A DNA stretch of 64,000 nt from NCBI GenBank assembly GCA_012845835.1, contig JABAKD010000005.1:3848155-3912154 (forward strand), read 5' to 3'. This DNA is from Undaria pinnatifida. Its lineage: Eukaryota > Sar > Phaeophyceae > Laminariales > Alariaceae. Under the pieces are notes generated by a model. It ran no database searches and was not told the origin of the DNA. It was given only the letters and a program-made list of their open reading frames with translations. The number at the start of each line of letters is the position of its first letter. Position 1 is the stretch's first letter. Positions 4,412 to 30,760 of this stretch are shown here, piece by piece. Both the position numbers and the translations under genes were made by a program.

Positions 4412-7400
4412 GTGGGTGGGACATATATCTATATGTATTCGCAAGGAATGTATTTCCGAACACTGATAGTTCCGTTCTATCACTGTCCTCACGGAGTCCA
4501 CCCAAGAAAAGAGCAAAAATCAAAGAAAGCGAAGCAAAGCAGATTAGAGCAAAGCAAAGCAAAGCAAAGCAGATCAGAGGCAAAGCAAACCAAAGCAAAC
4601 CAAAGCAAACCAAAGCAAACCTAACCTAACCTAACCTAACCTAACCTAACCTAACCTAACCTAACCTAACCTAACCTAACCAAACCAAACCTAACCAAAC
4701 CAAACCAAACCAAACCAAACCAAACCAAACCAAACCGAACCAAACCATACCCAAATCACACCAGACCAAACCAGACCAAACCAGACCAAACCGTCTCCAA
4801 TTCGTATTGAGTCGGTTCCGTTTCCGTTTTTGTTTGCGAAAAATACCTCAAACACGTCAGCTGTGATTTTCGCCGTTTGAGTGGTCAATGCTCAGCGTAC
4901 TATGTATGCCCTTCCCGTTTCACTTCAAATTGTTGTCCCCTTCCCTTCAACCCCGTCATTACTTCCTCAGTCCCTCGATTTCGAGAACAAACGAAAACAC
5001 GTCCTCGTAAACCGATCCAATCTCGTTTCCTTCGCCGTGCTCGCTAAAGTCGCAGTGAATCATCACCGAGTTTGACTCTAGTGCCTCTTTGTTTCAGCTG
5101 TTTCGTTTCATCTGTTCCGTTTACAACGTACTTTCTATATTTTCTTCCCTTCACTTTCCTTCCCTTCCCTTCCCTTCCCTTCCTTTCCGTTCCCCTTCTC
5201 CCGCCGTCGATTACTAGCCCATCGATTTCGAGTACGAGCCTACCTTGGAGGACGGCAACTTATCACAAGGAGGAAGTTATGACAGTTCTGTGAGTACTCC
5301 CCCCGCCCCCAACGGCTGCCCACTCTTCATGCCACTCGGCGAAAACCACAAGGCGCGAAGCGCTTGGTGCGCGGCGATGTTTGCCTGGTCGGTGAAAACT
5401 CGAGGTGCTCCGTCCCGGCACTGTAACGATACGAAGGTCTTTGGTCTTTAGCCTACGAGTTTGCGGTAAATGAGTACCCCCCCCTCCCCTTCCCCCCGGG
5501 CCGCTGTTAAGCAGCCATATTTTAGTTTTTTCCGGAGCTAAGTGCGATAGTTTTTTCTCCGAGAGAGGGAAACCGTGTGCAGCATAATTTTTTACGTTTT
5601 TTTTTCCTGCGGCGTCTTACTGAGGAGGCTATATACCCCACACGAAAACTGCTTTGATGAAAAAATGGCGCAGCTCAGTAGACTGGTTTCTACCGACTGT
5701 AGGCCTAGAAATCGGCAAAGGGAAGCTGTCGTTCCGTCTCGTGTGCTCTGCTGTACTCGCCCGGGCTATCCATGCACGTGAGACGCCTGAAGCCTCGAGA
5801 GCGAGTGATCATCACTCCCCCCCGTGCATCCGATCCTAAACGGCCAACCGTCGGTAGGATCCCCCCCCCAGTATCGTATTCATTGGTATTTTAATTCATC
5901 AGTTTTGAAACAAAATTGACATTTCGAAAAAGCATGTTGCTGAGTCATCCCACGGTAGGGTTGCGGGCGAAAGTCCCCGAGCTCCTCACATGAGGTAGGA
6001 ACTCAATATCTCACCCGAAAAATGCTTTCGAAGGCATTCGGTCGCACAACCCGACCAAGCTTCTACGCGTTAGCCCAGAAAAAAAAAAACGTACTCGTGA
6101 AATTACCTCATTGACCGGCAGTTCCCCACACGAGGAACTCCATCGCCCGGGGACGCTTTGGCCCAAACAATGCAACCCCTACCGTGGGATGACTCTGCTT
6201 CCCGAGAGAAAGCGTGTGCAGTCACACGCGAAGGTAAAGGTAAAAGACGTCTACCGTTTTTTTTTCTGTGGCTTCTCACTGAGGGTTCTTACCTCCACCC
6301 GAAAAAACGATTTTGGGGAGTCATCCCACGCTAGGTGGCGCAGCAGATTCTAAGGATTTTCTGAGCTCCTACCATGAGGATATCTGTCAATATCAACATC
6401 ATCACCCCAACGCGACTTCGAAGACGTTTGTTCCGAGCAAACCCGATCAACAGTCGCCCAAAACACGACTTCGAAGACGTTTGTTCCGCGCAAACCCGAC
6501 GAACAGTCGCCCGAAACATGACTTCAAAGCCGTTTGTTCCGCGCAAACCCGATCAACAGTCGCCCAAAACACGGCTTCGAAGACGTTTGTTCCGCGCAAA
6601 CCCGACGAACAGTCGCCCGAAACATGACTTCGAAGGCATTTGTTCCGCGCAAACCCGATCAACAGTCGCCCAAAACACGGCTTCGAAGACGTTTGTTTCG
6701 CGCAAACCCGACGAACAGTCGCCCGAAACATGACTTCGAAGACATTTGTTCCGCGCAAACTCAACCAGCAGTCAACCGAAACATGACTTCGAAGACATTG
6801 GTTCCGATCAAACCCGACCAACATCAGTTCTCCGCAGAAAGTCCTAAAACAGAAATATGAGCGAAACAAGTTGCGATGCTAATCGATAGTGCCACAATTT
6901 TGAAGCTCAACCCGGTCAGGAACGTTTGCCCCCCCCCCCCAAAAAGCGGGTGTTCTATGTATGATACATTATTGTGTTTTATCATAGTGGACGAAACTAG
7001 TCCTAACCCTAACCCTGGCCCTAGCCCATACGAGATATACCGATGAAGACCCCCTAGTGACGTCAACTGGAGTGAAATGGTTGAAAATACACAAATAATG
7101 TGTATCTGTGCAAAAAAGCGCAAGCCCTTACCCTATACTAACCGAAAGTTGCCACCACCTTAAGGAGCTCGAAACCGGCCAGGAACGCTCTGCGCGAAAC
7201 AGTGCAGCTAATGCAACCGACCTGAAACTTTTGGCGCGAACAGTACAGACCCTCTACCGCGCAGAGGCGAAAAAGACGCGTGCTACGATAGAGGTGCACC
7301 ACTTTGTTTTTTCTGAGGTCCCCCTCACTCTGGGAGGTTAAGACACCTTTCCCAAAAACACCGTTTTTTTGGAGAAAAAGTAAAACTGCACTACCGGATC

Positions 7401-9110
7401 AAAAATCTTATGGCCTCCTTAAGCACACAACAACAATCACGCCATAAAATCGCCTGTTTCCGACGATTTTGGGTCAAGGAGCCCCCGTCAGTCAGAAACT
7501 ATTAACGCCAAAAAACGGTATACCTCTAGCGTAGCACGTGAAGCGTGCTGCGATAAGAGGTACACCCCTTTGTTTTCTTTCAGGTTCCTCAATTTGGGAG
7601 CTTGAGACAACCCTCTCCCCAAAAACTGACTTGGAGTAAAAAATAAAAACTGCTACAAGCACCGGACGAAAAAAATTCCCATGGGGCCAAGATACACCAA
7701 CGAAAATCATGCAAGAAAAATGGCCTATTATTTTTTTTTTCCGACGATAGTATTAATAGGTTAAGGAGCCCCGTCATTCAGAAACCATTTTCGCCAAAAA
7801 AAGGTATACCTCTATCGTACCATGCGTCAGAAGCCGTGTAGAACCGCACCATTTGTCTTACTGAGGGCCCGCACTTGAGGAGGTTTGTACCCTACGCGAA
7901 AACTGATTTGGAGAGCAAAAACAAAAGTGATATCGTACCCCCCCCCCCCCCCCCCTTCCGATGAACGATCTCATGACGCAAAAATATCGCCAAAAAAATA
8001 AGGATTATCTCGAAATTTCCGACGACTTTGGGTTATGAGGAGGGTTCCCCTTCCCCGTCATTTCCAAAAACGTGAACGCTCTCATGGGTCTAGGTAAGGT
8101 ATACGAGGCAACCATATTGCCCCCCCCCAAAAAAGAAAAACTTGATAGTAAAAATTTCCGACGATTTTGGGGTGGTATAACCTCTGACTGATTCTTACTA
8201 CGATAGCCCCCCCCCCCCCCGAACCAGCGATTTTCTTTTAACGAACGCTGCATGGCTGCTCGAGACGAGGAAATATGCCACGAAGAAAGTATCTTCATGT
8301 ATTTCCTTGGTTCGCAAAGGATTGTATCGAATGATGACATCGGGGTTGAAAGGGGCACAGCGTATCTCGGGAGACACCACCGGGAGCTGGTTTTCAAAAC
8401 CGGCGATTTTGTTGAAGAAAAGTTGGGGGGGCTAACGTAGTAAGACTCCTCTCCCTATACAAATTCCACTTAGTTTTGCACCTAAAACGGGTCAAGGAGG
8501 GGGTTAAGGAGCGACGTCGTTCAGAAAACGTTGCAGAAAAGAAATTGCTGCCTCCATCGCCGCATGCGTCGGTCATTTTCCTTGCCGTAGGTGGTATGGA
8601 GTAGCTGTGGCAACTACGTGGGCTTAGTGAGACGGGATAATGTCTTTAGCAGCGATTTACAGTCACGGCAACCACGCCACCGCCAGCACCACCACCACCA
8701 CCACCACCACCACCGCCAACCCCGCCAACACCACACCGCCGCCGTCCGCAATGTTTTCGGCAGGGTGGGAAAGGGGGGTCGGGGCGGCAGTCGATGTCGA
8801 TCCACAACCCCGACCCGGCGAGGCAGGCCCGGATAGAAGCCGCCAAGGCGAAGCGTCAGCGGGCGATCGAGTACGGGAACAGCGCGCTGAAGGCTACGGT
8901 TCGCGAGGGAAATTTGAAGGATCTCAAGAAGCAGGTGCGCGTGTACAAAACAGAACGACTGCTGTTTTGGCTGGATGCAAATTTTGTTTTTGGTCCCTTT
9001 TTGTGGTGCCACGCACTGGGAGCCGAATCGCGTAAGGGCGGGCCGGCTTGTCTAGGGTGTCCTTGGACAGAACTGCCGCTGGGTAGCGGTAGCTGGGGGG
9101 GCGAGGGCTT

Positions 9111-9147
<37 letters not shown>

Positions 9148-12100
9148 GGTTGTGGTTGTTGTTGTTGTTGTTGTTGTGGTTGTTGTTGTTGTTATTGTGG
9201 TTGTTGTTGTTGTTGCTGTTGTTGTTGCTTGCCTTGGTCATTTGAACATCGACCGCGCATCTTTTTCAAGACAGAGCACCGTTCCTACTCCTTACAGAGA
9301 CACCCCCGACATTTTGGGCTTTCAACACGATCCTTAACTTTTATCTCCTTGCTGCTTCGTGTTGCCGGGGGGGGGGGGGGTGTACGAAATTAGCGCATCA
9401 TGGCCGTAGTCGTACGGGTGGGGAGGGGAGGGGGGTATTAGATTGGTGCTCACAAGCCTCGCGAACAACTGCCGCATTCCACTGATGAAGCACCCTTGAC
9501 CACAACAGCTATACCCCCCCCCCCCCCCCCCCCCTTCCCCCTCCGCCCTCTCGCGCTGGGTGGTGCGCCAGAATTTTCTGAGCTCCTAGCGTTGAGGAGC
9601 TCAATATCTCGCCCGGAACACGATTTCGAAGGCATTCGTTCGCGCAAGCCCGACCAACCCTGCCATGATCTAGTCCCGAAACAAATTCTGCTCGTAAAAC
9701 TATCATGCTAGCCTATAGTTCACACACTGACGCGTGCTTACGATGATAGAGGCGAACCACTTTTTTTTTTTTCTGAGGTTCCTTAATTCGGGGGAGCTTC
9801 AAGACGCTTTTTCTTTTTGGAGCAAAGCACAACTGCTACCTGATGAAAACAAAAATCCCATGGCCTAGGTACGCAACGAGAATCACTAAAAAAAAAGAAA
9901 AACAAATGGCCCATTCTTTTTTTTTCTCCGACGAGTTTGGGTCAAAGAGCTCCGTCATGCAGAAAACATTTACGCCAAAAAAAGGTATACCTCTACCGGT
10001 CCGAAACCTTTGCCCCCCCCCAAAAAAATATTCCAACCCTTGCCCCGGGATGACTCACTAGCAGAACCTTATTGATATTGGGGTCCTTGGTCAAAACCGC
10101 TGACATAGTACGCCTCCGCCTTCTTCCGTCGCCGTCCGGGCTTACGCCGTGTTTGGCCTCTTCCCTTCCCTGCCCACCCACCCACTCATCCACCCACCCA
10201 CCCAGCCCGTCCCACCAGGCGGCCTCCCGCCCCGTCCTGAAACAACGGAATATTAGTCCGTCGCTTCGTCCCTCGTATACAGCCCCCCTCGAAGATGGAT
10301 TTATTTTTTCTATTGTAAGTCCTCGAGTCATTAATAGTACCAGTGTGAGCTAATGAATGGTTTCGCCCCCCCCCCCTCCCCCCCTCCCCCCTCCCTCTTT
10401 TTTTTTTTTTTATTCCCTGAGTTGTTAATAGTGCCAGTGTGAGTTAAGGAATGGTTTCAACCCCTTGGACTTGTACTCTTTCTTTCGTTTGGATAAAAAA
10501 AATACACACACATTGTTTTTTTTTTGGCAGATTTTGGCGGACTTCGTGAGCACGATCGGGTGCGACCGAGCGACCCTCATGTTTGTGGACACGCCTAACC
10601 AGGTGGGTGAGGGCAAAAAGGGTTTCCAATCGTCCGGGGGGAGGGGGTGAAGGAAGAGGGGGATGAGGGGGGGAAGGGGAGGAGGGGGAGCGGAGAGGGG
10701 GGAGAAAAGAGAGAGGAGGGGGGCAAGGCGACGGGGGAGGGAAAAGGTGGAGGAGGGAGGAGGGGGGATGCGTAAGGCGGGGGGGGGGGGGGTGGAGGGG
10801 GGCAGGGGGGTAGAGGAGGAAGAGGAGGAGGGAGGGTGGAAGGGGCCCCTGTGTTGCTTCGCACACAAGAAGTATTTTTTGTAGCTGGATCTACGATGGA
10901 AACCACACGTGGAATCACCTCTACCTCGTTTTTTTGTTGTGCCAGATTTCACTATTCTGCCCTAACTCCAGCCTCACCCACTTAATCAAAAAGTGCACCA
11001 CCCTGCGATGGACCTTTTGATTCTCTCACTTCAGAGTGGCAAAAAAAGTGGCAGCAGTTTGCGTGCCCGCTAAGGACCGTGGCAAGTGTCGCCGAAGTTA
11101 CAAAGTGTGGTTCCAGGTCGTTGGATTTTCTCTTTCTCATGCTGGTGGCCAAGTCATTTTTACTGGTGTAGCTCTATAAGCACTCCCCGTGTCGTCGGAC
11201 GTACGAGTATTTTTTTTCTCATACGGTTAGTTGTTTTGTGATCTAGCGCTACCACACTACAACGCAGTGGTTTTCGTCCAATAGGTATTTGTATTTTGAA
11301 GGCGCACACGTCTTAAGCCGATTGCAGCGTCGGTGACAAAAACAAAAAAGACCACCCCCACCCTGCAATAGCTTCCTTGCCTGTATACACGAGCATACGG
11401 CGAATCTTACGCGGTAACAAACAAGGATCCCACCCCCCCTTCCCTCCCACTCCACTCCCTATCCGCCCTGTTGACGCCCGCTTATTTTAGGAACTGTTTT
11501 TCTTTGACGGAAACACGAGAATTTCGTTCCCGCTTCGGAAAGGAATAGCCGGACATTGCGCGGCGACTGGCGTCGGCTTGATCGTTAACGATCCCTACTC
11601 GAATGAACACTTCAACGCCCAGGTGAGAAAGGGCGCCACGTGGGCGAATTCTACGCTAGAGACACATAACCACACTTTTTTCCCGACGCTTCCCCTCGAA
11701 GTGCCAAAGTTGTAACCTTTTTGGGAGTTGATTATATCTTGATTTTATTATAGCGACCACAGAAAAACGACGATTGCGACGTTTTTCGAAGAGTATACGA
11801 GTAGTAGCGCGAGCGCGCGCGCAAGCTGTACGAGTAGGACCATGCTCCCTGCACCCGTCCCGTACGAGTCAGTCTTTGCGTTGTTGTCGCCGTTCCGACG
11901 CGAGTTTTTTCCATCGCCATCCAGCAGCGGCTGATGCCGTAATCGTCAATTTTTCCCTCTGAGGGTCTCGGAGGGTTTATTAGCCCCTTCACGACTGAAA
12001 GCGAGTTATAACCCCTTCACGGCTTAAACCCCGTTCACGACTGGAAGGGGTTATAACCCCATTCACGGCTGAAAGCGAGTTATAACCCCTTCACGGCTTA

Positions 12101-15100
12101 AACCCCATTCACGACTGGAAGGGGTTATAACCCCATTCACGACTGAAAGCGAGTTATAACCCCTTCACGGCTTAAACCCCATCCACGACTGGAAGGGGTT
12201 ATAACCTCATTCACGACTGGAGAGCCCCCTTTTTTGTGGGACAATTTACGTGGAATTAGTATAGGGACAGATTTTGGGGCTCTAAAGGGGTTAAGCCGAT
12301 AGCACATGCATGCTACGGTAAAGGCACTCCTCCTGACTTGAAGATCTCACGGGTCCCCAAAAAATTGTTCTCGAGCAAAACGGAAGGCAAGAGCTACCCG
12401 ATGACCCAAGCCCATGGCCTATAGGTAGACAACGCAAAACGTGCGGAAAAAAAACCAAAAAAATCAGACGATTGCGGGTAAAGGTGGGCCGGCTACCTGT
12501 CATGCTCGCGAAACAGTTTTGACCAAAAAGGGCTGCATCGCTACTACGAATCGTAGCACGAGTTTGATAGCTGCAACTGGCGACACATTCTCTACGTCAT
12601 AGAGGTGCAGCATTTTTTTTTCGTTGTGTCACGTGAGGACAGGAGGTTTTATGATCGAGACTCCTCCAAGAAAACCGAATTGGAGAAGAAAAGTAGAACT
12701 TGCGACCGGATTGAAAGATATTCATGGCCTAGGCAGACAACGAAAATCGTGCAGAAAAGGACCAAAATTCCGACGATTTCGGGCTAAGGTCTCTCCCTAT
12801 ACTAACTTCAAGTAATTTTTTCCCCAGAAGGGTTTCCGGTTGTGAAGGCGTTAAGGAGCCCCCCGTCATTCAGAAACCGCTTTACGCCAAAAAAAGGTAT
12901 ACCTCTATTGCAGCCCGCGTCAGGGGTGCGGCAGTTGACCATGGACGTAGGGTATGTGGCAGGGAGCTGAGGCAGTGTGCGACGCTCCAGCACGGAGCAT
13001 CACCTTTCCATTTTTCTGCCTGCTTTCGCGCATCCCTTCTATAATCTTCGCACTTTTTCTTTCTTTTACTACTCCCTCCCTGGACGTAACTCAGATCCGG
13101 GGTCACCAAGCAGGCTCTTCTCTCCCCCCCCCCCTCCCCACTACTGCACGCGCCTTCATTTTTTTATCGCCTGTGTTCCCGACCGACTACGAGAGCCTTG
13201 ACAGACGCGTGCTATGATAAGAGGTAGCAGTTTTTCGGTATTTTGTTTTTTTTTAAGTGACGGGCATGGGCTCCTTAACCCCTTTAGAGCCCCCGAACCC
13301 CTCCCTATACTAAAGCCAAGTAAATTTGTCCCCAAAAACGGGTTTCCAGTTGTAAAGGCGTTAACCCGTCTTAACCCTCCTTAACCCAAAATCGTCGGAA
13401 CGAATTCCATTCTTGTTTTCCAATACGCCTTTTTTATTGTATGCCTGTAGGCCGTATCGTACATATGTGGTTTTGTTTCATCGGGTTGAACTTTCAGGTC
13501 TACTTGAAAAAAAAAAAAAGTTTTTTTGGGTAGATGTATACTGTTAACAGTATAGAACTCCTCATCAGGTCAGAGAACTCAGAAAAAGAAAAAAACCATG
13601 GTTGGTGCGCACACCTACCGTTAGCATGTGTCGACATGGCGTATTGTTACCGTTCATGAGAGAACTGACAACAATATGTCATCTCTACGGCATGGCTCTT
13701 GTCGATAGCTTCCTCGTCCGCGTAGAGCACTCCACCACACCGACCCATCCCCCCGTTTGGCTGCCACGCCCCTATTTCGCCGACACAACACCAACGCGTC
13801 TGACACCCAACGTATTGTACGTCATTCCTGCCCCCGCTTTCTCCTGCTGCTTTCTGTGCTTTCCCGTGCGACAGATCGACAAGGACACCGGCTTCTTGAC
13901 GAAGAACATGCTCTGCGCACCCATCAAGGTACCCCCCCCCCCCCCCTCCCCCTCCCCCCGCCCTCTCGGGATGCCTGCCTGGTCGATGAAAACCCGACGT
14001 GCTCCGTCCGTCCCGAGATTGTAGGGGATGCGAGGGTCTATGGTCATACGACTGCGACTATGCATGAAATGAGTACCCACTCCTGCAATAGAAGCGTTTT
14101 CATTCCCGGCAAGAGTTGCCGTAAGTCATCCCCAGCTCATGATCTAGAGAGTTAGGGGCGGACAGATTGTTGAGTTATACTATTTATTTATTTATTTATT
14201 TATTTTTTTTTCATCCTCCGGCGGATGGGGAAAAATAAAGCTTTAGCTCACCACACTTCCACGTATTTTCATACGCGTCGTGTGTCGATTTAACTCAGTT
14301 GCTTTCGCAGCCCAACGCTAGCTGGCGCACCCTTCGGGTATACTATTGAATAAAAATATTTGTAACGACGTCAGCTGTGGGTGAATTCGACGACTTATCT
14401 AGATAGTTAGGGGCGGACAGATTGTTGAGCTATACTATTTGATGAAAATATTTGTAACGACGTCAGCTGTGAGTGAATTCGACGACTTAGGGTCGATACT
14501 CATCTCTGCAAGCTGCGTACTGAATCGATCGCCCGTCTTTAGTAAGCTTCATAAGTCAAAACCCAACACAAGATTACGTTGGATTTTGTTACCTATCATG
14601 TATAACTAATTGGCATACTATTATTTGTACGACCCACAGATGGTATTTTTTTCCGAGCGAGATCTCTGTGACACGGCTCGCTCCTGCGCACATGTTTAGC
14701 CACCGATGAGATCTGTGCGGTACGGCTCTTTACACAATGTTTCGTGGCGGAAGATGTAGGATCTATATGGTCTATTTACGGAGCTCCATCGTTCGCAGGA
14801 TGAAGTCGCACAAAAAGGAAAGCATCGCCACCTTTCAGGAGAGCGATCCTGCGCTATGACGACTGTGTTCGATTGAGGCTCTGTATACCTGGTAAAACCG
14901 GCTAACAAAATAATATTGAGTCAAAACGACATCAAACAAAGGTGGGTGCTGTTTTTTGCCCTCCTTTTTCTTCTTTTGATGATTCATCCAGCTACCAGTG
15001 GACCTCTGTAATATATCATGCTTTGTCGAATGGCATCTGAATGTCACGGCTCCTGCTCACAGGGCTTCTTTCAGGATGGGATCTGTAGGATCTATCTGCA

Positions 15101-18100
15101 CGATATCATACGGCTCTTGCACAACACCTCATTGAAGGAAAATTTTCTGTAAATATCATCTGTAGATGATCTGTCCGTTGTATGTGGCATGTGATCAAGG
15201 CTACGGCACGGGGATACCTCCCTTGTTCAACCTCCGCCATGACCACTTTTCACGAGTGACTGTGTCTCACTGACAACAAACACTCCAGGCGATGTGGTGG
15301 CGCAGCGCAGCTTACCATCCCATTTGCGGATTCACATGGCAAATTTTTTTCCACAACGCGAACATCACGAAAGCGTAAGGTCTTAAAAAGGGACACGGGG
15401 TTCACTCGTTCACTCGCGCGAGCCACCCCGAGCCACCGTAAAACTTTTCCCCAAAAGTGACCCCCCCCCCCTGCCGCGGTCTTGTTGGTGTTCGCGGGCC
15501 GCCCCAGTGACAGCGGCTGCAATGCGCGGCGGGACGCAAGCATCGAACGAAGAAAATATTGGCACCTGACGGCCGCTCGCGCGCGGAAACAACCCCGGGA
15601 TGATGCCCTCCCAACCCTCGCGACCCGACCCCCAACCCCTCCCCCCAAACCCCCATTCCTCTATAGGAGTAAGAATGGCGCTCCGCCTGGAAAGGAATGC
15701 GTGGTCAATGGTCGAATGACTAAGGCAATCAACGAATGAATAGCAACAAAAGGGTACCCCCCCCCCCGCCCTCCCAACCTCCAACCCCGCCTCCCCCTCC
15801 CCGTCATCAGACTACGGCCATGCAAGAACATCGAGTACACCCTCCCCCCTCCCCGCACACCCACCACCCCGCTCTAACCTCCAATTCACATCTCCCAATA
15901 CCCAACCCTACCCCACCGATCAGCTACCTTCCCCCCAATCAGAAAGAAGATGGTAGAAGCAAAACAGTTTGTATGTGGTATATGGAAGAAGCGTAATGGC
16001 CGCCCAAATGTTGGAGGTGTCTCTGTTGGTAGCAAAAACGCTGCTTCGTTCCCAATGGGATGGGTCCTCAATGGCCAAAGGGCTAAGGCAAGCAACAAAT
16101 GAGCACCCCCTCCCCCCGTCCCGTCTTCCCTTCCCTCAACCCCCTCCCCCGCCCGCCCCCCCCTCGAATCTTCGACCCCTCCCCCTGCAATGCAATGATG
16201 TCCGTCTTCCCCCCAACCACCCTTTTCAACTCCCTCCGCGCGTGCGTCGCCACACAAACAAAAAACAGTCGCGGAGAGGCGGCAACGTTGTGGCTGTCCT
16301 GCAGATGATAAACAAGAAGGGCGATAAGGACTTCACTGAACAGGCAAGCTTTTCAGCACTCTTTTTTGGTATGGTTTTGTGTTTTTTTGGTGCGTTTGAG
16401 TGCTTTTCTGGTATGATTTTTTTTTTTTTTCTTGTGGGTTTGAGTGCTTTTCCGGGCGCGTTGGTATTTAAAGTTTTGTCCGTTTTTTGGTGTGTCGTTG
16501 TTGTTTTCGTCGGTTTAGTGTAGATTTGTGTGAGGTAAGGTTGTGGCTGTCCTGAAGATGGTAGAAAACAAAGGGGATGAGGATTTCGCTAAACAAGCCA
16601 GCGTTATTCTGTGATTTTGTGCATTTTTGTCGATTTTTGTGCGTTTTTGAGCAATTTTGTGTGTTTTGTTTAATTTTTGTACGTTTTTTTGTGTATTTTT
16701 GGGTGGGTTTCCGTTTTGGGGGTTTACGGTTCGAGGTGGTGACATTGCAGCTGCCCTCCGGTTGGTAAACACGAAGAGGGGTCACTATACTACCGAACAG
16801 GTGATTTTGGAGTTATTTTCGGTATGATTTTGTGCGTTTTCGTGTGTTTTTGTACGTTTTGATGCGCTTTTTGTTTGGGTGCATCTTTGTTATTTTTCGT
16901 TTTCGTTTTCATCGTCGTTTTCCTTTCAAGGTGGTACCGTTGTGGCTATTGTGCAGATGGTGAAGGTTGTTGTGCAGAAGGTAAATGAGAAGGGGTATCA
17001 AGGAAGGATTTCACCAAACAGACGGGGTCTTGAGTGATGGTTCGTACGGTAGTGAGAGCTTTTGTGCATTTTTGGACAGGTTTTGGTGCGTTTAGTGGGC
17101 GCGTTCTCGGGTGTATCTTCGTTATTCCCGGTTTTTCTTCTTTCCTTTCGCCTTCATGTCGAGGTGGCATCGACGTGGCTAATCCTGCAGATGGCAAAAA
17201 AAAAAGAGATGAATCGGGCCTTCACCGAGCAGGCGACTTCGTGTTAGGTCCATATGCAGCAGCAGGAGGAGGAGTTGGTATTGTCCCGAGGGGCTTTAAA
17301 CCCACAATCGTCGGGTTTTCGTTCCTTTTTTTGTGGTTACAGCTTTTTGTTCTATATCTGCTACTAGGTCATGGGATGAGTTTCGTTGATTACCTACGAT
17401 TAATAGCAGGCCATGGGATATTGTAATGTTCATCTGGTGGCAGTTTTATTTTGCCCCCATTTCAGTTTTTCGGAGGCATCCGAAACTCCTTAAGTGAAGA
17501 GGGCGTACGAAAAAAAGATGGCGCGCCTCTACCGTGGCATGCGTCTGAGGAGCCTCAGAACAACGGCCTCGGAAAAACAGCTTCAGAAAAAGAGCCTCAG
17601 AGAAACAGCCTCAGAAAAACCGCCTCAGAAAACAGTCTCAGAAAAAAAGCCTCAGAAAAGTGGGTTTAGAAAAAATCCTAAAAAAATTGGCTTCCGAAAA
17701 ACAGCCTCAGGAAAGCAGCCTCAGAAAAACGACTTCAGAAAAACAGCCTCGGAGAAACAGCCTCAGAGAAGCCGCCTCAGAAAACGGCTGCAGAAAAAGG
17801 CTTCAGAAAAAAGCCTCCGAAAAATGGCTCAAGAAAAACAATCTCAGAAAACAGTTTCAGAAAAACAGCCTCAGAGAAACCGCCTCAGAAAACAGTCTCA
17901 GAAAAAAAGTCTCAGAAAAACAGCCTCAGAAAACGCCTCAGAAAACAGTCTCAGAAAATCAGCCTCCGAAAAACAGCCGCAGAGAAACCTCCTCAGAAAA
18001 CAGTCTCAGAAAACAGCCTCAGAAAAACAGACTCAGAGAAACCGCCTCAGAAAAACGACCTCAGGAAAAAATCCTCAGAAAAAGAAAAATAGCTTCAGAA

Positions 18101-19432
18101 AAAAATCGTGAGAAAAACATTGGTGCATCCCTTGCCCTAACTTGCTGCTGTAAATTCAGGATGCTGATGTGATGGAGATGTGCAACGTAAAGGTGGCTCA
18201 CGCGCTGGACACCACCTTCTCCGCGCTAGTAGCAGCCGAAAACGACTGGGCAAAAACCGCGGGTCGCCGTAAAAGCGTCGGTGGTGGCAGCGGTAGCAAC
18301 GACGGTAGCGGCGGCGGCGGTGGTGTTGACGCTGGTGGAGGCGTGCCTGCGGCAGACACAGCAGCAGCAACAGCGATAGCCGGCGGAGAAGTTGGGGATG
18401 TTATTGCTGCTGCTGCTGATAAGGGGGGGGGGGCGGGGGCGGCGGAGGGGAGGAGGGAGAGTTACCGGATCCGCAGGATGTCATCGACGGAAGGAGGGGG
18501 CGGGGGCACTTCTTTTGAGGTGTGTATGGTGTGGACGGGGGGGGGGGTAGGGGGGGGGAGGGGGGGGGGGCGGGGGGGGGGCGGGGGGGGTGGGGGTGTT
18601 GGTTCTGGTGGTGGTGGTGGTAGAGTGATGGTAGGGTGGTGATGCTGGTGGTGGCGGTGGCGGCGGTGGTGGTGAAGTGGTGGTGGTGGTGGTGGTGGTG
18701 ACCGACTCGGTGGCAAGAGAGCAAGGGGTGCTTGCTACACATGTAAAACTGAAAATGTACGCTAACGGACCACGCGTGTTTCCACAGGGGCTGCACCTTT
18801 TGGCCGAACACATCTGACATACGAGGCTACCCAGTATCACTAGAACGCACGTTTGTGACAGACACAACTTGCGCGTTCTTCCCAATCAACCAAATGTTTA
18901 CGACCAGTCCTCTTCGCCGCGTACACAGACAGCGTGCGTCAACCATGTAGTCGTGTCGAATATGTGGTGAGGTCTGTTGCCTCCCGCGGGAATTCGGTTC
19001 GGGGGTCCATGTGATGCCATCATCTCCCTCCTCTTCAAATCCACGATCTTCCTCCGACGGATAACTGACATGATATCTTCTTCTTCTTCCCCCCCCTCCC
19101 CCCCCCGCTCTCCCCCCTCCCCTCCTCCCCCCCTTTCCTCTCCCCCCCCCGCCCCCCCCCTCCCCCCCCCCTCCTTTCCCCACGCTTCCTACCGCGTCAC
19201 CGTACGCCTTCCGCGGGGGCTTCAATTCTCGGACGCATACCATTCTTTCCCATCGACGATAACGAAAACCGTCACCCTCATGTTGTCGATGGCGACAATT
19301 CTTCCACCGAACCGCGGCTTATTTTTTTCGCCGACGGGAGAGAAGGGCCAGCAGATCTCCAACCGGAGGGGGAGCGGCGCGTCGAGGGCGGACCTGGAGA
19401 AGCTTAAGCGCAGGACCGACTACGGGAAGGAG
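4307..19432 (+). CDS. GAF-domain signalling protein, multi-exon, 5' and 3' ends not found
   Basis: Nine exons (4307-4411, 5218-5289, 8791-8934, 10531-10602, 11491-11622, 13875-13928, 16269-16343, 18160-18519, 19355-19432) join in phase 0 to give 364 codons with no stop. Joined, exons 3-8 form a full GAF domain: helix LKDLKKQILADFVSTIGC, strand DRATLMFVD, core RKGIAGHCAATG and VNDPYSNEHFN, then FLTKNMLCAPIK and VVAVLQMINKKG. An NK...F...D signature like that of cyclic-nucleotide-binding GAF domains is present (NKKGDKDFTEQD), with Ala where the family usually has Glu. Before it lies a basic, helical N-terminal part; after it a Gly/Ala-rich low-complexity linker. No catalytic domain is visible, so phosphodiesterase, cyclase or pure sensor cannot be told apart. 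Cytoplasmic location is inferred from the absence of signal or membrane segments. Confidence 0.75.
4530..4795. repeat. Mosaic pentamer satellite (AAAGC, AAACC, CTAAC)
   Basis: Blocks of AAAGC, then AAACC, then about 13 uninterrupted CTAAC units (about 4619-4680), then AAACC again. The CTAAC block looks telomere-like but has a 5-bp period and lies inside an intron, so it is an interstitial satellite. Confidence 0.85.
4957..4990 (+). repeat. Decayed copy of an exon acceptor edge
   Basis: A pyrimidine tract, cag, then TCCCTCGATTTCGAG mirrors the true acceptor edge at 5217 (tag, CCCATCGATTTCGAG) 250 bp downstream. The frame after it does not match the exon. Confidence 0.5.
5155..5195. repeat. 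TTCCC pentamer tract
   Basis: About seven TTCCC units form the pyrimidine tract in front of the 5218 exon acceptor. Confidence 0.7.
5218..5289 (+). CDS. GAF gene exon
   Basis: Acceptor ttactag and a consensus donor GTGAGT at 5290. Encodes PIDFEYEPTLEDGNLSQGGS and four more residues: acidic and probably disordered. Phase 0 at both ends. Confidence 0.6.
5316..5450 (+). repeat. Dispersed repeat R, partial copy
   Basis: Contains GCCTGGTCGGTGAAAAC and GTGCTCCGTCCCGGCA, shared with 13965-14060, 23320-23600 and an inverted copy at 24610-24905. Origin unknown. Confidence 0.5.
5942..6195. mobile_element. MITE-D copy 2 (254 bp), best preserved
   Basis: Left GAGTCATCCCACGGTAGGG and right CCCTACCGTGGGATGACTC are near-perfect inverted repeats. 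TGCT stands on both sides and may be a target duplication. Interior as in the other D copies. Confidence 0.75.
6318..6416 (+). mobile_element. MITE-D copy 3, left part only
   Basis: Starts GAGTCATCCCACGCTAGG and runs through TCTGAGCTCCTACCATGAGG, then passes directly into the 53-bp array that begins at 6417. No right end is seen. Confidence 0.6.
6417..6833. repeat. 53-bp minisatellite with an A-B dimer structure
   Basis: Eight units start at 6417, 6470, 6523, 6576, 6629, 6682, 6735 and 6788. Odd units read GATCAACAGTCGCCCAAAACAC and even units GACGAACAGTCGCCCGAAACAT for the first six, giving a 106-bp higher-order repeat. The unit is an expanded piece of MITE-D (ACTTCGAAGGCATTCGTTCG region). 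Since 53 is not a multiple of 3, the open frames across it are not genes. Confidence 0.85.
7275..7540. mobile_element. MITE-1 copy (266 bp), abutting the next
   Basis: Starts GACGCGTGCTACGATAGAGG and ends CCTCTAGCGTAGCACGTG. Interior GGCCTCCTTAAGCA, TTCCGACGATTTTGGGTCAA and CCCGTCAGTCAGAAAC. Opposite orientation to the copy at 2538. Confidence 0.8.
7541..7828. mobile_element. MITE-1 copy (288 bp), tandem with the previous
   Basis: Starts AAGCGTGCTGCGATAAGAGG with no gap after the previous copy and ends CCTCTATCGTACCATGCGTC. One internal block is replaced by AGTATTAATAG where relatives read TTTTGGG. Confidence 0.8.
7830..8573. mobile_element. Composite MITE-1-like debris around a MITE-2
   Basis: Eroded MITE-1 words (cttgaggaggtt, ACTGATTTGGAGAGCAAAA, TTCCGACGA, and a final GTCGTTCAGAAAACG to CATGCGTCGG) flank an 18-C run at 7938-7955 and the MITE-2 copy at 8187-8443. 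Confidence 0.45.
8187..8443. mobile_element. MITE-2, copy 2 (about 257 bp)
   Basis: Left GATTCTTACTACGATAGCCC and right GGGGGGCTAACGTAGTAAGAC are inverted partners; the inner AACCAGCGATTTTC and AAAACCGGCGATTTTG arms extend the inverted repeat past 40 bp. This copy lacks the insertion seen in copy 1. Confidence 0.75.
8685..8735. repeat. (CAC)n trinucleotide tract
   Basis: About a dozen CAC/CCG units just upstream of the GAF exon at 8791; reads as poly-Thr or poly-His and is not taken as coding. Confidence 0.6.
8791..8934 (+). CDS. GAF gene exon, N-terminal helix
   Basis: Acceptor ggggcggcag and donor GTGCGC at 8935. The 48 codons run SMSIHNPDPARQARIEAAKA, then KRQRAIEYGNSALKATVREG, then NLKDLKKQ: charged and strongly helical, the helix that leads into the GAF fold. 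If ATG 8794 is a start codon, this could be the first coding exon and the two earlier exons would belong elsewhere. Confidence 0.75.
9113..9235. repeat. (TTG)n trinucleotide tract
   Basis: About 40 TTG units with GTG, ATT and CTG interruptions. Poly-Cys and poly-Val frames across it are artefacts. Confidence 0.85.
9549..9728. mobile_element. MITE-D copy 4, right side interrupted
   Basis: Carries GAATTTTCTGAGCTCCTAGC, CTCAATATCTCGCCC, CGATTTCGAAGGCATTCG and CTATAGTTCACACACTG, then is broken by the MITE-1 at 9729. A 21-C run lies just upstream (9514-9534). Confidence 0.6.
9729..9999. mobile_element. MITE-1 copy inserted into MITE-D
   Basis: Starts GACGCGTGCTTACGATGATAG. Interior CCCATGGCCTAGGTACGCAA and CCGACGAGTTTGGGTCAAAG are family blocks. 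The right end is truncated after GGTATACCTCTACC. Confidence 0.7.
10315..10462 (+). repeat. Short direct duplication about 100 bp apart
   Basis: CATTAATAGTACCAGTGTG with AATGGTTTC at 10331-10362 recurs as TTAATAGTGCCAGTGTG with AATGGTTTC at 10425-10459, separated by C and T tracts. It lies just upstream of the exon at 10531. Confidence 0.5.
10531..10602 (+). CDS. GAF gene exon, first GAF strand
   Basis: A T-rich tract and tttggcag acceptor; donor GTGGGT at 10603. Encodes ILADFVSTIGCDRATLMFVD and TPNQ: the opening helix and first beta strand of the GAF fold (the D-R-A-(S/T)-(L/I)-F-(L/V)-V-D pattern is typical). Phase 0 at both ends. Confidence 0.85.
10615..10850. repeat. Purine-rich low-complexity tract
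   Basis: G-rich GGGGAGG/GAGGAGG sequence with runs up to 13 G. Poly-Pro frames on the minus strand come from this and are not called. Confidence 0.7.
11491..11622 (+). CDS. GAF gene exon, GAF core
   Basis: Acceptor cttattttag and donor GTGAGA at 11623. Its 44 codons include ELFFFDGNTRISFPLRKGIA, GHCAATGVGLIVNDPYSNEH and FNAQ. The R-K-G-I-A-G-x-x-A-x-T-G and N-D-P-Y-x(3)-F pattern is the most diagnostic GAF segment in the window. Phase 0 at both ends. Confidence 0.9.
11985..12220. repeat. 74-bp minisatellite, about three units
   Basis: Unit: GACTGAAAGCGAGTTATAAC, CCCTTCACGGCTTAAACCCC, ATTCACGACTGGAAGGGG and so on; starts near 11993, 12067 and 12141. It passes straight into a TTAA mini-MITE whose left arm has the same words (ACCCCATTCACGACTGG). 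Confidence 0.75.
12205..12294 (-). mobile_element. TTAA mini-MITE, left end merged with an array
   Basis: Reads ACGACTGGAGAGCCCC, TAGTATAGGGACAGATTTTG and GCTCTAAAGGGGTTAA, the reverse orientation of the family. The right TTAA is at 12291-12294; the left arm is part of the 74-bp array. Confidence 0.6.
12300..12566. mobile_element. Diverged MITE-1 copy
   Basis: Blocks CATGCATGCTACGGTAAAGG, CCCATGGCCTATAGGTAGAC, CAGACGATTGCGGGTAA and a final GAATCGTAGCACGAG follow family order with much divergence. Confidence 0.5.
12583..12928. mobile_element. MITE-1 copy with mini-MITE remnant
   Basis: Blocks TCATAGAGGTGCAGC, TTCATGGCCTAGGCAGACAA, CCGACGATTTCGGGCTAAGG and CCCGTCATTCAGAAACCG, and the end GGTATACCTCTATTGCAGC. 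Between them is a partial TTAA mini-MITE (12792-12853, CTATACTAACTTCAAGTAAT). Confidence 0.65.
12955..13165 (-). repeat. Dispersed repeat F, copy 2 (empty site)
   Basis: Read on the minus strand: AGAGCCTGCTTGGTGACCCC, GGATCTGAGTTACGTCCAGG, GAGGGAGTAGTAAAAGAAAG. GAGTTACGTCCAGGGAGG is unbroken here, whereas in the copy at 52.6 kb a 182-bp element sits at that TA. Confidence 0.6.
13204..13632. mobile_element. MITE-1 copy (429 bp) with an intact mini-MITE
   Basis: Starts GACGCGTGCTATGATAAGAG and ends CACCTACCGTTAGCATGTGTC. The TTAA mini-MITE at 13279-13360 explains part of the extra length; an A-rich block explains more. Confidence 0.75.
13279..13360 (+). mobile_element. TTAA mini-MITE (82 bp) inside MITE-1
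   Basis: Flanked by TTAA at 13275-13278 and 13361-13364. Starts CCCCTTTAGAGCCCCCGAAC and ends GGGTTTCCAGTTGTAAAGGC. Uninterrupted MITE-1 copies read GGCTCCTTAACCCAAAATCG at this place. Confidence 0.75.
13875..13928 (+). CDS. GAF gene exon (18 codons)
   Basis: A pyrimidine-rich tract then gtgcgacag acceptor; donor GTACCC at 13929. Encodes IDKDTGFLTKNMLCAPIK, the GAF strand before the last hairpin ((T/S)-x-(N/S)-(M/L)-L-C-x-P-(I/V)). Phase 0 at both ends. Confidence 0.85.
13965..14075 (+). repeat. Dispersed repeat R, partial copy
   Basis: GCCTGCCTGGTCGATGAAAA, CCCGACGTGCTCCGTCCG, GATGCGAGGGTCTATGGTCA: close to 23515-23605. Confidence 0.55.
14147..14480. repeat. Direct duplication around an inserted block
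   Basis: GAGTTAGGGGCGGACAGATT and GTTGAGTTATACTATTT (14151-14186) recur at 14406-14442, each leading to AAAATATTTGTAACGACGTC. The first copy is interrupted by a block (about 14190-14340, CGGATGGGGAAAAATAAAGC) that also occurs at 59195-59310. Confidence 0.55.
14772..15012. mobile_element. MITE-E copy 1 (about 240 bp)
   Basis: Words TACGGAGCTCCATCG, AAAGCATCGCCACCTTTCAG, TTCGATTGAGGCTCTG, CAAAGGTGGGTGCTG and TTGATGATTCATCCAGC align in order with the copy nested at 19851-20095. The ends are weakly inverted. Confidence 0.55.
15020..15655. other. No recognisable gene
   Basis: Mixed sequence with a C-run (about 15462-15472) and open minus-strand frames caused by C-rich composition. I see no splice-flanked coding block and no inverted repeats. 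Confidence 0.4.
15660..15745 (+). pseudogene. LINE 3' end fragment
   Basis: Encodes SKNGAPPGKECVVNGRMTKA, matching the extreme C-terminus of the LINE fragment at 23080-23149 (SRNGASSRKGCVVNGQITKA). Truncated on its 5' side. Confidence 0.65.
15740..15940. repeat. C-rich low-complexity tract
   Basis: CCCCNCCCTCCCAACC-type sequence between two LINE tails. Poly-Pro frames are not called. Confidence 0.6.
15945..16103 (+). pseudogene. LINE 3' end fragment, frameshifted
   Basis: TATATGGAAGAAGCGTAATG, GCCGCCCAAATGTTGGAGGT and GGCTAAGGCAAGCAACAAAT match 23028-23149 at the nucleotide level, but the frame is broken. Confidence 0.65.
16269..16343 (+). CDS. GAF gene exon with a GC donor
   Basis: Acceptor aaaaaacag. 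The 25 codons SRRGGNVVAVLQMINKKGDK and DFTEQ are the last GAF hairpin and the NK...F part of the NKFD motif. The donor is GCAAGC: AG|GCAAG fits the known GC-AG class rather than GT-AG. Phase 0 at both ends. Four decayed copies follow in the intron. Confidence 0.85.
16527..17235 (+). pseudogene. Four tandem decayed copies of the GAF exon
   Basis: Copies end near 16595, 16802, 17022 and 17233. Copy 1 reads GKVVAVLKMVENKGDEDFAK and copy 2 GGDIAAALRLVNTKRGHYTT, both in open frames. Copy 3 has an internal GTTGTTGTGCAGAAGG-type duplication. Copy 4 keeps ILQMAKKKEMNRAFTEQ after a one-base shift. Between them runs shared TTTTGTGCGTTTTTG-type intron sequence, so the duplicated unit is exon plus flank (about 200-250 bp). 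Copies 1 and 2 could still be alternative exons. Confidence 0.75.
17270..17549. mobile_element. MITE-1 right half
   Basis: ACCCACAATCGTCGGGTTTT, GGCCATGGGATATTG, CGAAACTCCTTAAGTGAAGA and CCTCTACCGTGGCATGCGTC follow MITE-1 order; the left end is lost. Confidence 0.55.
17549..18115. repeat. GCCTCAGAAAAACA minisatellite
   Basis: Irregular 10-24 bp units of CTCAGAAAA(A)CAGCCT begin at the very edge of the MITE-1 terminus and continue for 560 bp. The unit resembles a MITE-1 subterminal block (ctcagaaagg). The Lys/Ser/Glu/Gln-rich frames across it are not genes. Confidence 0.8.
18160..18519 (+). CDS. GAF gene exon: end of GAF and Gly-rich linker
   Basis: Acceptor taaattcag and donor GTGTGT at 18520. 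Starts DADVMEMCNVKVAHALDTTF, the closing GAF helix (D-A completes NKFD as D, then A not E), followed by SALVAAENDWAKTAGRRKSV and a long Gly/Ser/Ala-rich stretch. Phase 0 at both ends if the donor is right; the GGGGG tract makes the 3' end uncertain. Confidence 0.7.
18530..18720. repeat. Poly-G and GGT tracts
   Basis: G runs of up to ten interrupted by C, A or T, then GGTGGTGGT. Open frames here are compositional. Confidence 0.8.
19085..19190. repeat. Poly-C tract
   Basis: CCCCCCTCCCC sequence upstream of the last GAF exon, with several runs of nine to ten C. Confidence 0.8.
19355..19432 (+). CDS. GAF gene exon (26 codons), last one seen
   Basis: Acceptor gccagcag; the 26 codons begin ISNRRGSGASRADLEKLKRR and end TDYGKE. 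The apparent donor GTACTG at 19433 is the first base of a MITE-like end (GTACTGTGAGGTTCTCCCTA), so either a transposon supplied the donor or the exon was truncated by it. Confidence 0.55.
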
Positions 19433-21236: not shown

Positions 21237-21804
21237 CCCCGGGTCACGACCCGGCTCGAAAACTCGCGGGTCGAGTCGGGTAGGGTAAGGAGGAGATGTT
21301 CGAAATCTCACGGGACGGGTCGGGCCGGATCGGGTCAGGATTTTTTTTCAAAAAATAACTGGTCGGGTCGGGTCTGATCGGATCGGGTCGGGTCGGGTCG
21401 GGTTGGGTCGGGTCGGGTCGGGTCGGGTCGGGTCGGGTCGGGTCGGGTCGGGTCGGGTCGGGTCGGGTCGGGTCGGGTCGGGTCGGGTCGGGTCGGGTCG
21501 GGTCGGGTCGGGTCGGGTCGGGTCGGGTCGGGTCGGGTCGGGTCGGGTCGGGTCGGGTCGGGTCGGGTCGGGTCGGGTCGGGTCGGGTCGGGTCGGGTCG
21601 GGTCGGGTCGGGTCGGGTCGGGTCGGGTCGGGTCGGGTCGGGTCGGGTCGGGTCGGGTCGGATCGGGTCGGGTCGGGTCGGATCGGGTCGGGTCGGGTCG
21701 GGTCGGGTCGGGTCGGGTCGGGTCGGGTCGGGTCGGGTCGGGTCATTCTGGCCCGATCCGACGACTCGCGAGAAGAGATTCGATCCGTGAAAAGCCCTGT
21801 TTTT
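21237..21804. mobile_element. MITE-G copy 1 with a giant GGGTC expansion
   Basis: Left arm CGGGTCACGACCCGGCTCG, right arm GATCCGTGAAAAGCCCTG, plus TTCGAAATCTCACGGG: the same order as copies at 24095, 39612 and 60945. The interior is replaced by the satellite at 21361-21744. Confidence 0.65.
21361..21744. repeat. (GGGTC)n satellite, about 77 units
   Basis: Nearly pure GGGTC with rare GATCG and TTGGG variants. It can be read open on both strands (RVGSG or DPTRP repeats); neither is a protein gene. Confidence 0.95.
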
Positions 21805-22302: not shown

Positions 22303-23149
22303 TCGAACTAGGAATTTACCCATTTAAAACAAATAGAGACGCGAGAAAGTTGAAATGGCAATATAAAGTAAGGAATATGCCAGAAACAAGGTTGCCAGCC
22401 ATAGTTGATAGGGTTGTACGGGAGAAAATAACAAAAGGACGAGCTGGAATAAGATGGGATAATGTGGTCGAGAAAATATTGAAGGAGTTGGGAAGAGACC
22501 AAGAAGATATACCATCCATAGAGAAGTCTGGTGGGTACAAGACAGAATTAAAAGAAATAATATTAATAGAAGAAAGGGAAAGGTTAGCGCTAAGAAAATA
22601 AGGTAGACAAGGAGAAGGACCTAGAGATATACGGGGGAGTTGAGGGAAGATACTGGAATGGAAACGCATTTGCACGGTCCAATGGACTACGCGAAAACGC
22701 CGAAATTGCGATGTCGTGTAGGGGACCTGGACCTACCAAAAAGAAGAAAGAGATATACCAGTAGTCGGGAGGAGAAGGATGTGGATGCACATATGTGCCC
22801 GTGTGGCATAACAGAGAGTAAGGCTTGCATAGCGGGAGAATGTGAAATATGCAAGGAGGAACGGGATGCGCTGGAGGAGGAGGTGAGGAAATTACACGAA
22901 CGTGACATGGAAGAGTTTGATAGAATAGAGAGTAGCGAGAAAACGATCGCTATCCTAGGAGATAGATGGTGGCCGCAGACGGCGAAACAGGACGTGGGTA
23001 GGATACGCAAACAGTTTCTGTGTAATATATGGAAAAAGCGTAATGAGCGCCCAAACGTTGGAGATGTCTCTATTAGGAGTAGGAACGGTGCTTCGTCTCG
23101 AAAGGGATGCGTGGTCAATGGTCAAATCACTAAGGCAAGCAACAAATGA
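22303..23149 (+). pseudogene. LINE-type retrotransposon, 3' end of the pol ORF
   Basis: First frame GIYPFKTNRDARKLKWQYKV, RNMPETRLPAIVDRVVREKI; second frame (from 22640) MDYAKTPKLRCRVGDLDLPK and a Cys knuckle CPCGITESKACIAGECEIC, then GDRWWPQTAKQDVGRIRKQF and a C-terminus ending KASNK. This is the region after reverse transcriptase in LINE-type elements. The element is 5' truncated (palm absent) and frameshifted near 22600. It is the longest member of a family with tails at 15660, 15945, 25297 (minus) and 35370-36318; the palm region occurs at 33165. Confidence 0.75.
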
Positions 23150-23319
23150 GTACGCTACCCCTCCCCCCCCCAACCCTTTGTTTTGTTTTGGCGATCACCA
23201 TGATGGATATCGAGTTAGGTCATATTTTGCGGGGTGGAGAACCCTATCTCCGCACAAGGAGAATGATCGCATCACGTAGTGTGAACATGGCAAGGCACCC
23301 ACGAGGCAGTTACATAGTA

Positions 23320-28506: not shown

Positions 28507-29420
28507 TCACATCAAGCACCCGACCAACTCGCGAAAAGACCAATCACCCACAGGTTCGTTCTTGTCGAACACCTCGAGCTTCAGACCAGTCGAAAGCGGG
28601 GTACTCCTCCCAGAACTGACATCAAACCTCGCCGCGGTGTTTTCAGCGAAAGCTTGTTGCGAAAACGTCAAAGTACCAGCACCCCAATCCCCCGCAAAAC
28701 GACGACCAGCACACCACCGCAACTCGCCCAGATTGTTGATCGGGACAAGGCGTTGAAGGTCTTCACATAACTGATCGCACCTAGCCTCAAGTCCTGCTGC
28801 AAATATATCATCCACATGAACTACTGTTACAATGGAAACAGAGCCCAAGTCGATCAGTCGCAAGACACGCATCAGCGTAGCACTGGGCAAATTCAAGAAG
28901 GTGTGGGTGAGTAGATGGTTGTGCCACGACCCCGACGCGTGTTTCAAGCCGCAGAGACTGCGGTTCAACCTGACTACCTTACTTACCAAACGTTTCGCCG
29001 CAATCATGGGGTAGTCGCCAAGAAACATGTTCTGCAGACTCCACTGGACGAACGCTTTCTCGGCGTCAAAATGACACAAGTCCAAGCCCAACTCGCACGC
29101 AATAGCACCCAGCAAACGAAAAAAAGACGCCGAAGGCGTCGGGGGGCAAATACCTCAAAGAAGTCAATACCCTCACACTGCTTAAAAGCTCGTGTCACCA
29201 GTCTTGCTTTCGCCCGGACCACAGAGCCATGCTCGTTGAATTTCCAGGCGAATGCCGACTTCGCCGAGATGACGTTCAGGCCGCCCGGTTGCTATGTTTC
29301 CCCGAACGCACCCGCGCTCACCAGCCCACGGCACTCCTTGTCCATCCTCTGCCTCCAGATGACCGAATACTCGTCCACACACGCTTCAGCATACGACTTC
29401 GGCGTTGAAAGGTCGCTCAC
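28507..29420 (-). pseudogene. Copia reverse transcriptase remnant
   Basis: KSYAEACVDEYSVIWRQRMD (start), then VVRAKARLVTRAFKQCEGID and FFEVFAP, then a shift to LDLCHFDAEKAFVQWSL, LCGLKHASGSWHN and VHVDDIFAAGL. The catalytic box usually reads Y-x-D-D; here it is H-V-D-D. The end is TPLSTGLKLEVFDKNEPVGD and RELVGCLM. Confidence 0.8.
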
Positions 29421-29939: not shown

Positions 29940-30760
29940 CAGTTGCCTCGGGTTCTCCCAAAGAACGTCGCGGGAGTACGACTTCCGTCCAGACCGGCAG
30001 GATCTTGCAACAGTCTGCCAAGTGGTGTTTTCCGCCATTCAGGTAGAAACAAGCCTCTACCTTGGGCCCCGACTTCACGGTCCAATACCGGTTTCAAGAA
30101 CATGAGTAGCCGCGCACACGTCGCTCTTCCGTGGAACTTCTGGTATGACGAGTGCATGTCCAGCTTGTCCCTGGCCCTTGCCGCCGCCGTGTTGATCACT
30201 TCGCTGGCGTACTTGCACGCCTCAGTCCATAGGGGCTGCGTCGGCGGCATCTCCGAACAGAACGGGGGCCTCCAGGCGGGACGCCGTCGCAAGCTCCAGC
30301 GTCATGGCTATGCGCCGCTTGACCACGCCGTCATGCTTCGGAGCACCAACAGGCGTGCACTCGCAGAGGATGCCACGCTCGTTGAGCATTGCCACGAACT
30401 CCGGGTTGACGAACTCGGTACCGTTGTCCGAGCGAACACACTCCCACGATGGACGGGACACCCTTGGCAACGATGTCCGCCAGAAAACCAGCAAAGACCA
30501 TCGGAACGTCGGACTTCCGTTCCAAGAAATACGGCCATCCCATCCGCGAGTAGTCGTCGACGATCGTCATCAAGTACTGAGCACGACCGGCAGACGTAGG
30601 TTGTTGCCCCGACAGATTCACGAAAAGACGCTCCAGAGGCCTGGTGGAGCGGCGCTCGGTCGTCCACGGCACCATCATCCTCCTCCCGTTCGCCGCAAAA
30701 CACCCAGCACAGGAAACCAACGCTCCGAAAATCTTAGTGCCCATTTGGCGCGCCATCTCA
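29940..30760 (-). pseudogene. Copia integrase remnant
   Basis: First frame (30756-30450): C-x2-C remnant VSCAGCFAANGRR, then core LMTIVDDYSRMGWPYFLERK with the first Asp. After a frameshift: RSDNGTEFVNPEFVAMLNER (second Asp) and GAPKHDGVVKRR. Another shift gives EACKYASEVINTAAARARDK and SYQKFHGR. The D,D-35-E order is visible, but the final Glu appears replaced (VVKRR where relatives carry VVER). Confidence 0.8.

Follow-up and report, generated by a model that had tools for sequence, protein, structure and literature searches.

Four tandem copies of a GAF-domain exon, probably decayed, within one intron of Undaria pinnatifida

Four diverged direct copies of a 75-nt GAF-domain exon (16269–16343) were found in the intron on its 3′ side, in a 64,000-nt stretch of Undaria pinnatifida DNA (contig JABAKD010000005.1), referred to here as the window. 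Judged from the letters of the DNA, these copies are very probably (at about 0.86) the remains of a tandem exon duplication that has decayed, drifting inside the intron and being removed with it. The first-pass annotation had offered two readings of the array, a tandem duplication now decaying and a young set of alternative exons. The former is supported by an acceptor that is present in none of the four copies (0/4), by the loss of reading phase in 3/4 and by pooled substitutions that look neutral. The latter is not, since copies 1–3 cannot be spliced in frame from their common AG and the open frames on which it leaned are weak evidence.

Host gene and its GAF exons

The window looks eukaryotic and carries a plus-strand gene broken into short exons with AG/../GT (or GC) borders (the slash marks an exon edge). 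The protein spliced from the five exons of Table 1, the last taken from 18160 onward, matched the Pfam GAF family PF01590 at 45.4 bits (cut-off 22.4, E 1.5e-11), and its PDB matches (21 distinct sequences, E up to 0.001) were to the GAF domains of PDE2A, PDE5, PDE6, PDE10A and adenylate cyclase (1ykd). According to the reading frames, all four introns between the five exons are phase 0, and the third exon, by ending in phase 0, sets the entry frame of the exon that follows it. An upstream exon ending at 8934 (MSIHNPD...LKKQ), for which no Pfam family match was found, may be part of the same gene.

The PDB alignment places the GAF hairpin in the real exon. The exon also supplies N, K and F to the NKFDE motif; the D is encoded by the opening codon of the exon after it, and the place of the E, inspected by eye, is taken by A. 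NKFDE is described in the available part of PMC11977230 as a mark of cyclic-nucleotide-binding GAF domains, and alanine changes in it abolish binding in PDE2 GAF-B and lower binding in PDE5. The earlier remark that the copies would vary the edge of the ligand pocket therefore calls for caution, because the motif residues held by this exon make no contact with the ligand and yet are needed for its binding (PMC11977230, same part).

Table 1. Exons of the GAF-domain region and cores of the intronic exon copies (positions in the window).
Feature	Position	Strand	Identity to real core, insertions excluded (%)	Remarks
GAF exon ILADFVSTIGCDRATLMFVDTPNQ	10531–10602	+		phase 0-0; AG/../GT borders, in-frame GAF match
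GAF exon (ELFFFDGN...FNAQ)	11491–11622	+		phase 0-0; AG/../GT borders, in-frame GAF match
GAF exon IDKDTGFLTKNMLCAPIK	13875–13928	+		phase 0-0; AG/../GT borders, in-frame GAF match
Real exon, 75 nt, SRRGGNVVAVLQMINKKGDKDFTEQ	16269–16343	+		phase 0-0; alignment spans the PDE GAF hairpin
Intron stretch with copies 1–3 and T/G-rich filler	16344–17161	+		filler similarity
Copy 1 core	16534–16596	+	77.8	open; 62 nt from the common AG, phase lost; read from an AG farther in (start 16540), 57 or 63 nt and in phase
Copy 2 core	16738–16800	+	65.1	open; GT donor; at 65 nt from its AG, out of phase
Copy 3 core	16933–17021	+	79.4	21-nt internal near-duplication and 5-nt insertion; 91 nt from its AG; CAG end without GT/GC (CAG/ACGG)
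Copy 4 core	17166–17232	+	77.4	indels; 69 nt from its AG (start 17164), phase 0-0, open; GC donor CAG/GCGACT
Next GAF exon (DADVMEMCNVKVAHALDTTF...)	18160–18270	+		phase 0 entry; AG border, in-frame GAF match; 18270 marks only the end of the stretch used in comparisons

Homology and layout of the copies

Counted from the core of the real exon, which starts at 16281, the cores of copies 1–4 follow at intervals of 253, 204, 195 and 233 nt. Alignment of the real exon with the four copies gave scores of 59, 28, 32 and 40, respectively, none of which was equalled in 1000 dinucleotide shuffles (0/1000 for each), and homology to the original exon thus extends to 4/4 copies. The real exon with four tandem copies at roughly 200–250 bp, as first described, was confirmed by these intervals and shuffles. 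Copies 1, 3 and 4 also resemble one another beyond all 1000 shuffles. Copy 2 does not resemble these three significantly (235, 106 and 21 of 1000 shuffles were equally good against copies 1, 3 and 4, respectively) and is tied to the array via the real exon.

The fillers after copies 1, 2 and 3 are alike, with at most 1/300 dinucleotide shuffles as good. The filler after the real exon matches the others weakly (72, 22 and 13 of 300 shuffles as good), and such likeness as it has may reflect in part a common T/G-rich composition. The shared intron filler noted earlier therefore stands for the fillers after the three copies among themselves and is weak for the one that follows the real exon.

Unit borders and splice sites

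With standard scoring, copies 1–4 begin to align with the real exon at 16281, 16276, 16277 and 16276, which is 7–12 nt inside the exon, and lenient gaps can extend the alignments to 16269, 16272, 16277 and 16266. At the ungapped acceptor position, AG was found in none of the four copies, which read GT, TT, TT and CT. At least copy 4 may once have held the acceptor, of which its CATG, in place of CAG, may be the remnant. All copies do carry an AG directly before GT; the matching AG of the real exon is internal (GAGAGGCGG) and out of phase, and in the copies it is probably better read as inherited sequence than as evidence of a splice site. The AG/GTGG of the copies was also considered as the ancestral acceptor and rejected: it would need entry after the first codon base, but the upstream exon ends in phase 0, and the hairpin loop would shrink to about 3 residues (by eye), against five to six in PDE2A and PDE5.

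The real exon has a GC donor (CAG/GCAAGC) that agrees with the consensus at 7/9 positions, and an A-rich acceptor; its own sites being weak, weak sites alone would not exclude a copy. GC donors are present on copies 1 and 4 as well, with 5/9 matching positions for both donors of copy 1 and 7/9 for that of copy 4. The GT donor reported at the end of copy 2 is indeed there (CAG/GTGATT) and matches at 8/9 positions; because the real exon and copies 1 and 4 all have GC, this GT is probably a later change. The sequence before the AG is pyrimidine-rich in copies 3 and 4 and G-rich in copy 2. Measured by the rule that splice sites be conserved with the original exon (Pillmann 2011), the array falls short, with the acceptor AG in 0/4 copies and neither GT nor GC at the CAG end of copy 3, and a looser rule, accepting any AG with any GT or GC, passes copies 1 and 4.

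Reading phase and open frames

From the common AG to the CAG (or CAA) end, copies 1–4 measure 62, 65, 91 and 69 nt, and the frame is broken in 3/4, so copies 1–3 cannot replace or join a phase 0-0 exon without a frameshift. When they are entered in phase 0 from the AG, a stop is reached at codon 7, 11 and 11, respectively (after VRLWLS, VVTLQLPSGW and VVPLWLLCRW). Copy 4 is in phase through its indels. To be in phase, copy 1 has to be read from an AG deeper in the unit (start 16540, or 16558 in a short form), with the hairpin loop lost, and no in-phase acceptor was found for the GT donor end of copy 2. Phase does exclude copy 1 (from its usual AG), copy 2 and copy 3. Signs of decay are also seen in the indels of copies 3 and 4 and in the lost donor of copy 3, along with the 3/4 copies out of phase.

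The open frames that had been quoted for copies 1 and 2, VVAVLKMVENKG and IAAALRLVNTKRG, are present as given, and in-frame stops are absent from all four copy cores (0/4). Such frames are weak evidence, because random mutants often stay open: simulated mutants with 13, 14 and 22 differences did so in 69, 68 and 58% of runs, copies 1 and 2 differing from the real exon at 14 and 22 sites, respectively, and a stop is expected from 3.2% of random changes.

Substitution pattern

Changes were polarised against a plurality ancestor of the five sequences on an assumed star tree, over 63 sites with one ambiguous site set aside and insertions dropped. The branch of the real exon carries 5 changes, 4 of them silent and one a V to I replacement (silent share P=0.015). 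The branches of copies 1–4 carry 10, 16, 8 and 13 changes, of which 3, 3, 2 and 7 are silent. Pooled, the copies have 15 silent and 32 replacement changes (15/47), against a neutral expectation of 24.6% silent (two-sided P=0.24); the silent share is 8/34 when copy 4 is left out, and it differs between the real exon and the copies at Fisher P=0.054. By codon position, the pooled changes fall 16/12/19 (P=0.46). Least-squares branch lengths on the star are 0.059 for the real exon and 0.179, 0.432, 0.158 and 0.237 for copies 1–4, the real branch being 2.7–7.3 times shorter than those of the copies and copy 2 changing fastest. Comparing the copies by codon position had been proposed at the outset as a check, and its outcome favors decay, in that the pooled changes ignore position and have a neutral silent share, with copy 1 as the exception.

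In copy 1, second codon positions are unchanged. Its differences from the real exon are distributed 6/0/8 (0/14 at second positions, P=0.0034) and the changes on its own branch 4/0/6 (0/10, P=0.017), copy 1 being in both cases one of four copies tested. Replacements make up 7/10 of its changes, however, and purifying selection does not leave such a pattern. Besides copy 1, the silent changes of copy 4 (7/13) and the absence of in-frame stops from the cores also speak against neutral decay. Within NKFDE, copy 1 has N to E and K to N, with an NK pair one residue later, and copy 2 has K to T and F to T; these changes may be read as further drift. With copy 1 as the exception, neutral copies thus lie beside a real exon that has stayed constrained.

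Alternative-exon filter and domain scores

The marks of mutually exclusive exons are homology, comparable length, and conservation of both the splice sites and the frame, as stated in the available parts of PMC3228551 and PMC5740500. A WebScipio-like filter was re-implemented, with a minimum of 15 aa, a tolerance of 20 aa and a score threshold of 15% of the self score (Pillmann 2011). Two copies pass it, copy 1 at 0.468 and copy 4 at 0.206; copies 2 and 3 fail, the best score of copy 2 lying below zero and copy 3 yielding no candidate. A length in threes with the frame kept, at a score of at least 0.15, is hence found in 2/4 copies, a result that neutral runs often reach too. Neutral decay was simulated in 1500 runs from an inherited unit, with hand-chosen numbers of indels: at least two of the four units passed in 32.7% (0.327), and at least one scored at least 0.45 in 16.1%. 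Since neutral decay passes the filter so often, passing is uninformative here. Shuffling the downstream intron 200 times gave a best filter score of 0.183, and the filter is loose enough to give 0.188, for the neighboring exon, to a 12-residue stretch that is unrelated by DNA and under the 15-residue minimum.

Domain scores were compared after swapping the copies into the protein. Against GAF_2 (cut-off 28.6), the protein with the real exon scored 33.8 bits, the forms with copy 1 (two forms), copy 2 or copy 4 scored 21.4–26.4, and the form with the exon omitted scored 16.6, each swap thus beating omission. Against PF01590, the real form at 45.4 and the form with the exon omitted at 25.6 both exceed the cut-off of 22.4, and the four swapped forms are absent from the listing, the swap test being a rough one.

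Origin of the array and competing explanations

The copies lie in tandem with the real exon and are homologous to it, as expected of a decaying duplication. We propose that tandem duplication, in several rounds, would have multiplied most of the GAF exon together with its donor and part of the T/G-rich intron, the left break probably falling among the opening bases of the exon or close to where it starts. No copy has a functional equivalent of the true 3′ splice site, and the copies, sitting in one intron (16344–18159), would be spliced out with it and drift without coding constraint, with the constraint remaining on the real exon. Tandem duplication is common in the window, in view of its 108 tandem-repeat rows, some of which overlap.

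Low-complexity sequence could in principle produce such resemblance by chance, and the fillers are T/G-rich and of low complexity. However, 0/1000 shuffles reach any exon–copy score, and among 25 exon–intron comparisons (five exons by five introns) this exon against its own 3′ intron is the sole outlier, at 59 versus a shuffle maximum of 27, with no such score in the other 24; chance similarity is ruled out on these two grounds and has a negligible share of the probability. A use of the homologous copies as exons deserves more weight and is still improbable. Copy 4 (17164–17232), copy 1 (16540–16596 or 16602) or both might be mutually exclusive alternatives that would alter the beta hairpin and the NKFDE region, as both are open, in phase 0-0 and above the 15% threshold, at 0.206 and 0.468, with a shuffle best of 0.183. 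Copy 1 further lacks second-position changes, and copy 4 has a donor equal to that of the real exon (7/9) and a pyrimidine-rich acceptor. However, neutrally decaying homologous units pass the filter about equally often, the same loose filter gave an unrelated 12-residue stretch 0.188, and both copies fall under the GAF_2 cut-off; moreover, copy 1 would need an AG 5 nt past a nearer AG, would lose the interstrand loop, has donors of 5/9 and shows replacements in 7/10 of its changes. Just as doubtful is the narrower proposal that copy 4, and perhaps copy 1, may be a low-use alternative exon of a cyclic-nucleotide-type GAF, rephased by indels, such that a partly decayed array would have been re-used to vary or switch off ligand binding.

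The copies might also act as poison exons, whose inclusion after the real exon would lead to an early stop and a message lowered by decay, which we regard as less probable again. In phase 0, copies 1, 2 and 3 do run into a stop at codon 7, 11 and 11, and the GT donor of copy 2 matches at 8/9 positions, but an early stop is usual for any out-of-frame fragment. The donor of copy 1 is weak, that of copy 3 is absent at the CAG end, the AG of copy 2 is preceded by G-rich sequence, and copy 2, the fastest changing of the four, bears no sign of constraint.

Decay of a tandem duplication, the preferred reading, would place the array in a kind that is already known: the available part of Pillmann et al. 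(2011, PMC3228551) lists pseudo-exons from tandem exon duplication among the false positives that exon-duplication searches produce. Like the pseudo-exons described there, the copies are homologous to a neighboring exon, intronic and lacking correct splice sites, and copies 3 and 4 carry frameshifting indels; unlike them, they number four and their cores are all without an in-frame stop. With the mutually exclusive exons presented in the available parts of PMC5740500 and PMC9013439 they share an arrangement in which homologous exon-like units follow one another in tandem between one pair of constitutive exons, but here copies 2 and 3 are below the threshold, substitution is neutral overall and the acceptor has no counterpart. 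Tandem exon units in one gene are also seen in the phase-2 LRR exon arrays of brown algal ROCO genes (available part of PMC11378527), where the exons are 72 bp, uniform in phase and reported as spliced, whereas the GAF copies are not uniform in phase. The present array is unreported in the titles and abstract openings of the best-ranked literature matches listed, and a report in print is not to be expected.

Open frames and a GT beside exon copies can mimic an array of alternative exons, and the filter built on published criteria accepts 2/4 copies here, as the neutral simulation often does. Phase, the missing acceptor and polarized substitution counts separate debris from function better than this filter. 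If a copy were spliced, the array would be one caught between decay and re-use.

Relatives, rejected matches and neighboring repeats

Neither the GAF protein nor the repeat ORF at 22625–23146 brought up any relative when searched against viral contigs, and the genome contigs searched yielded one distant bacterial GAF (37%, L001), of no use for intron comparison. No tRNA was found in the window, and Rfam gave no match at the gathering score. Two further stretches were considered as exon copies and rejected. At 15380–15415, a frame (RDTGF, filter score 0.188) resembling the exon at 13875–13928 has only a 13-nt DNA match to it, and the best score of that exon against the intron was equalled by 133/200 shuffles. 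At 50310–50328, a 19-nt near match to the start of the real exon (94.7%, E=0.003), in a frame with nearby stops, is probably due to chance.

Repeats of other kinds surround the array. The intron of the exon copies also contains, ahead of the 18160 exon, a minisatellite with a 14-bp unit (AGCCTCAGAAAAAC) at 17551–18083, past copy 4, with 75% matches over about 39 copies. Upstream, 15659–15742 and 15962–16117 are 85 and 80% identical to 23068–23152 and 23009–23168, respectively, with a C-rich tract after each; they resemble truncated relics of one repeat, the second of which ends about 150 nt before the real exon. Retrotransposon remnants, which we take to be Copia-type, lie on the minus strand at 28510–29154 and 30225–30566, with an RVT_2 match of 41.4 bits and a sub-threshold integrase match of 16.6 bits (cut-off 32.6). 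An almost perfect GGTCG array (about 77 copies, 97% matches) is located at 21361–21744, and at 6409–6823 there is a 53-bp array (86% matches over about 8 copies) in which several frames have long open stretches.
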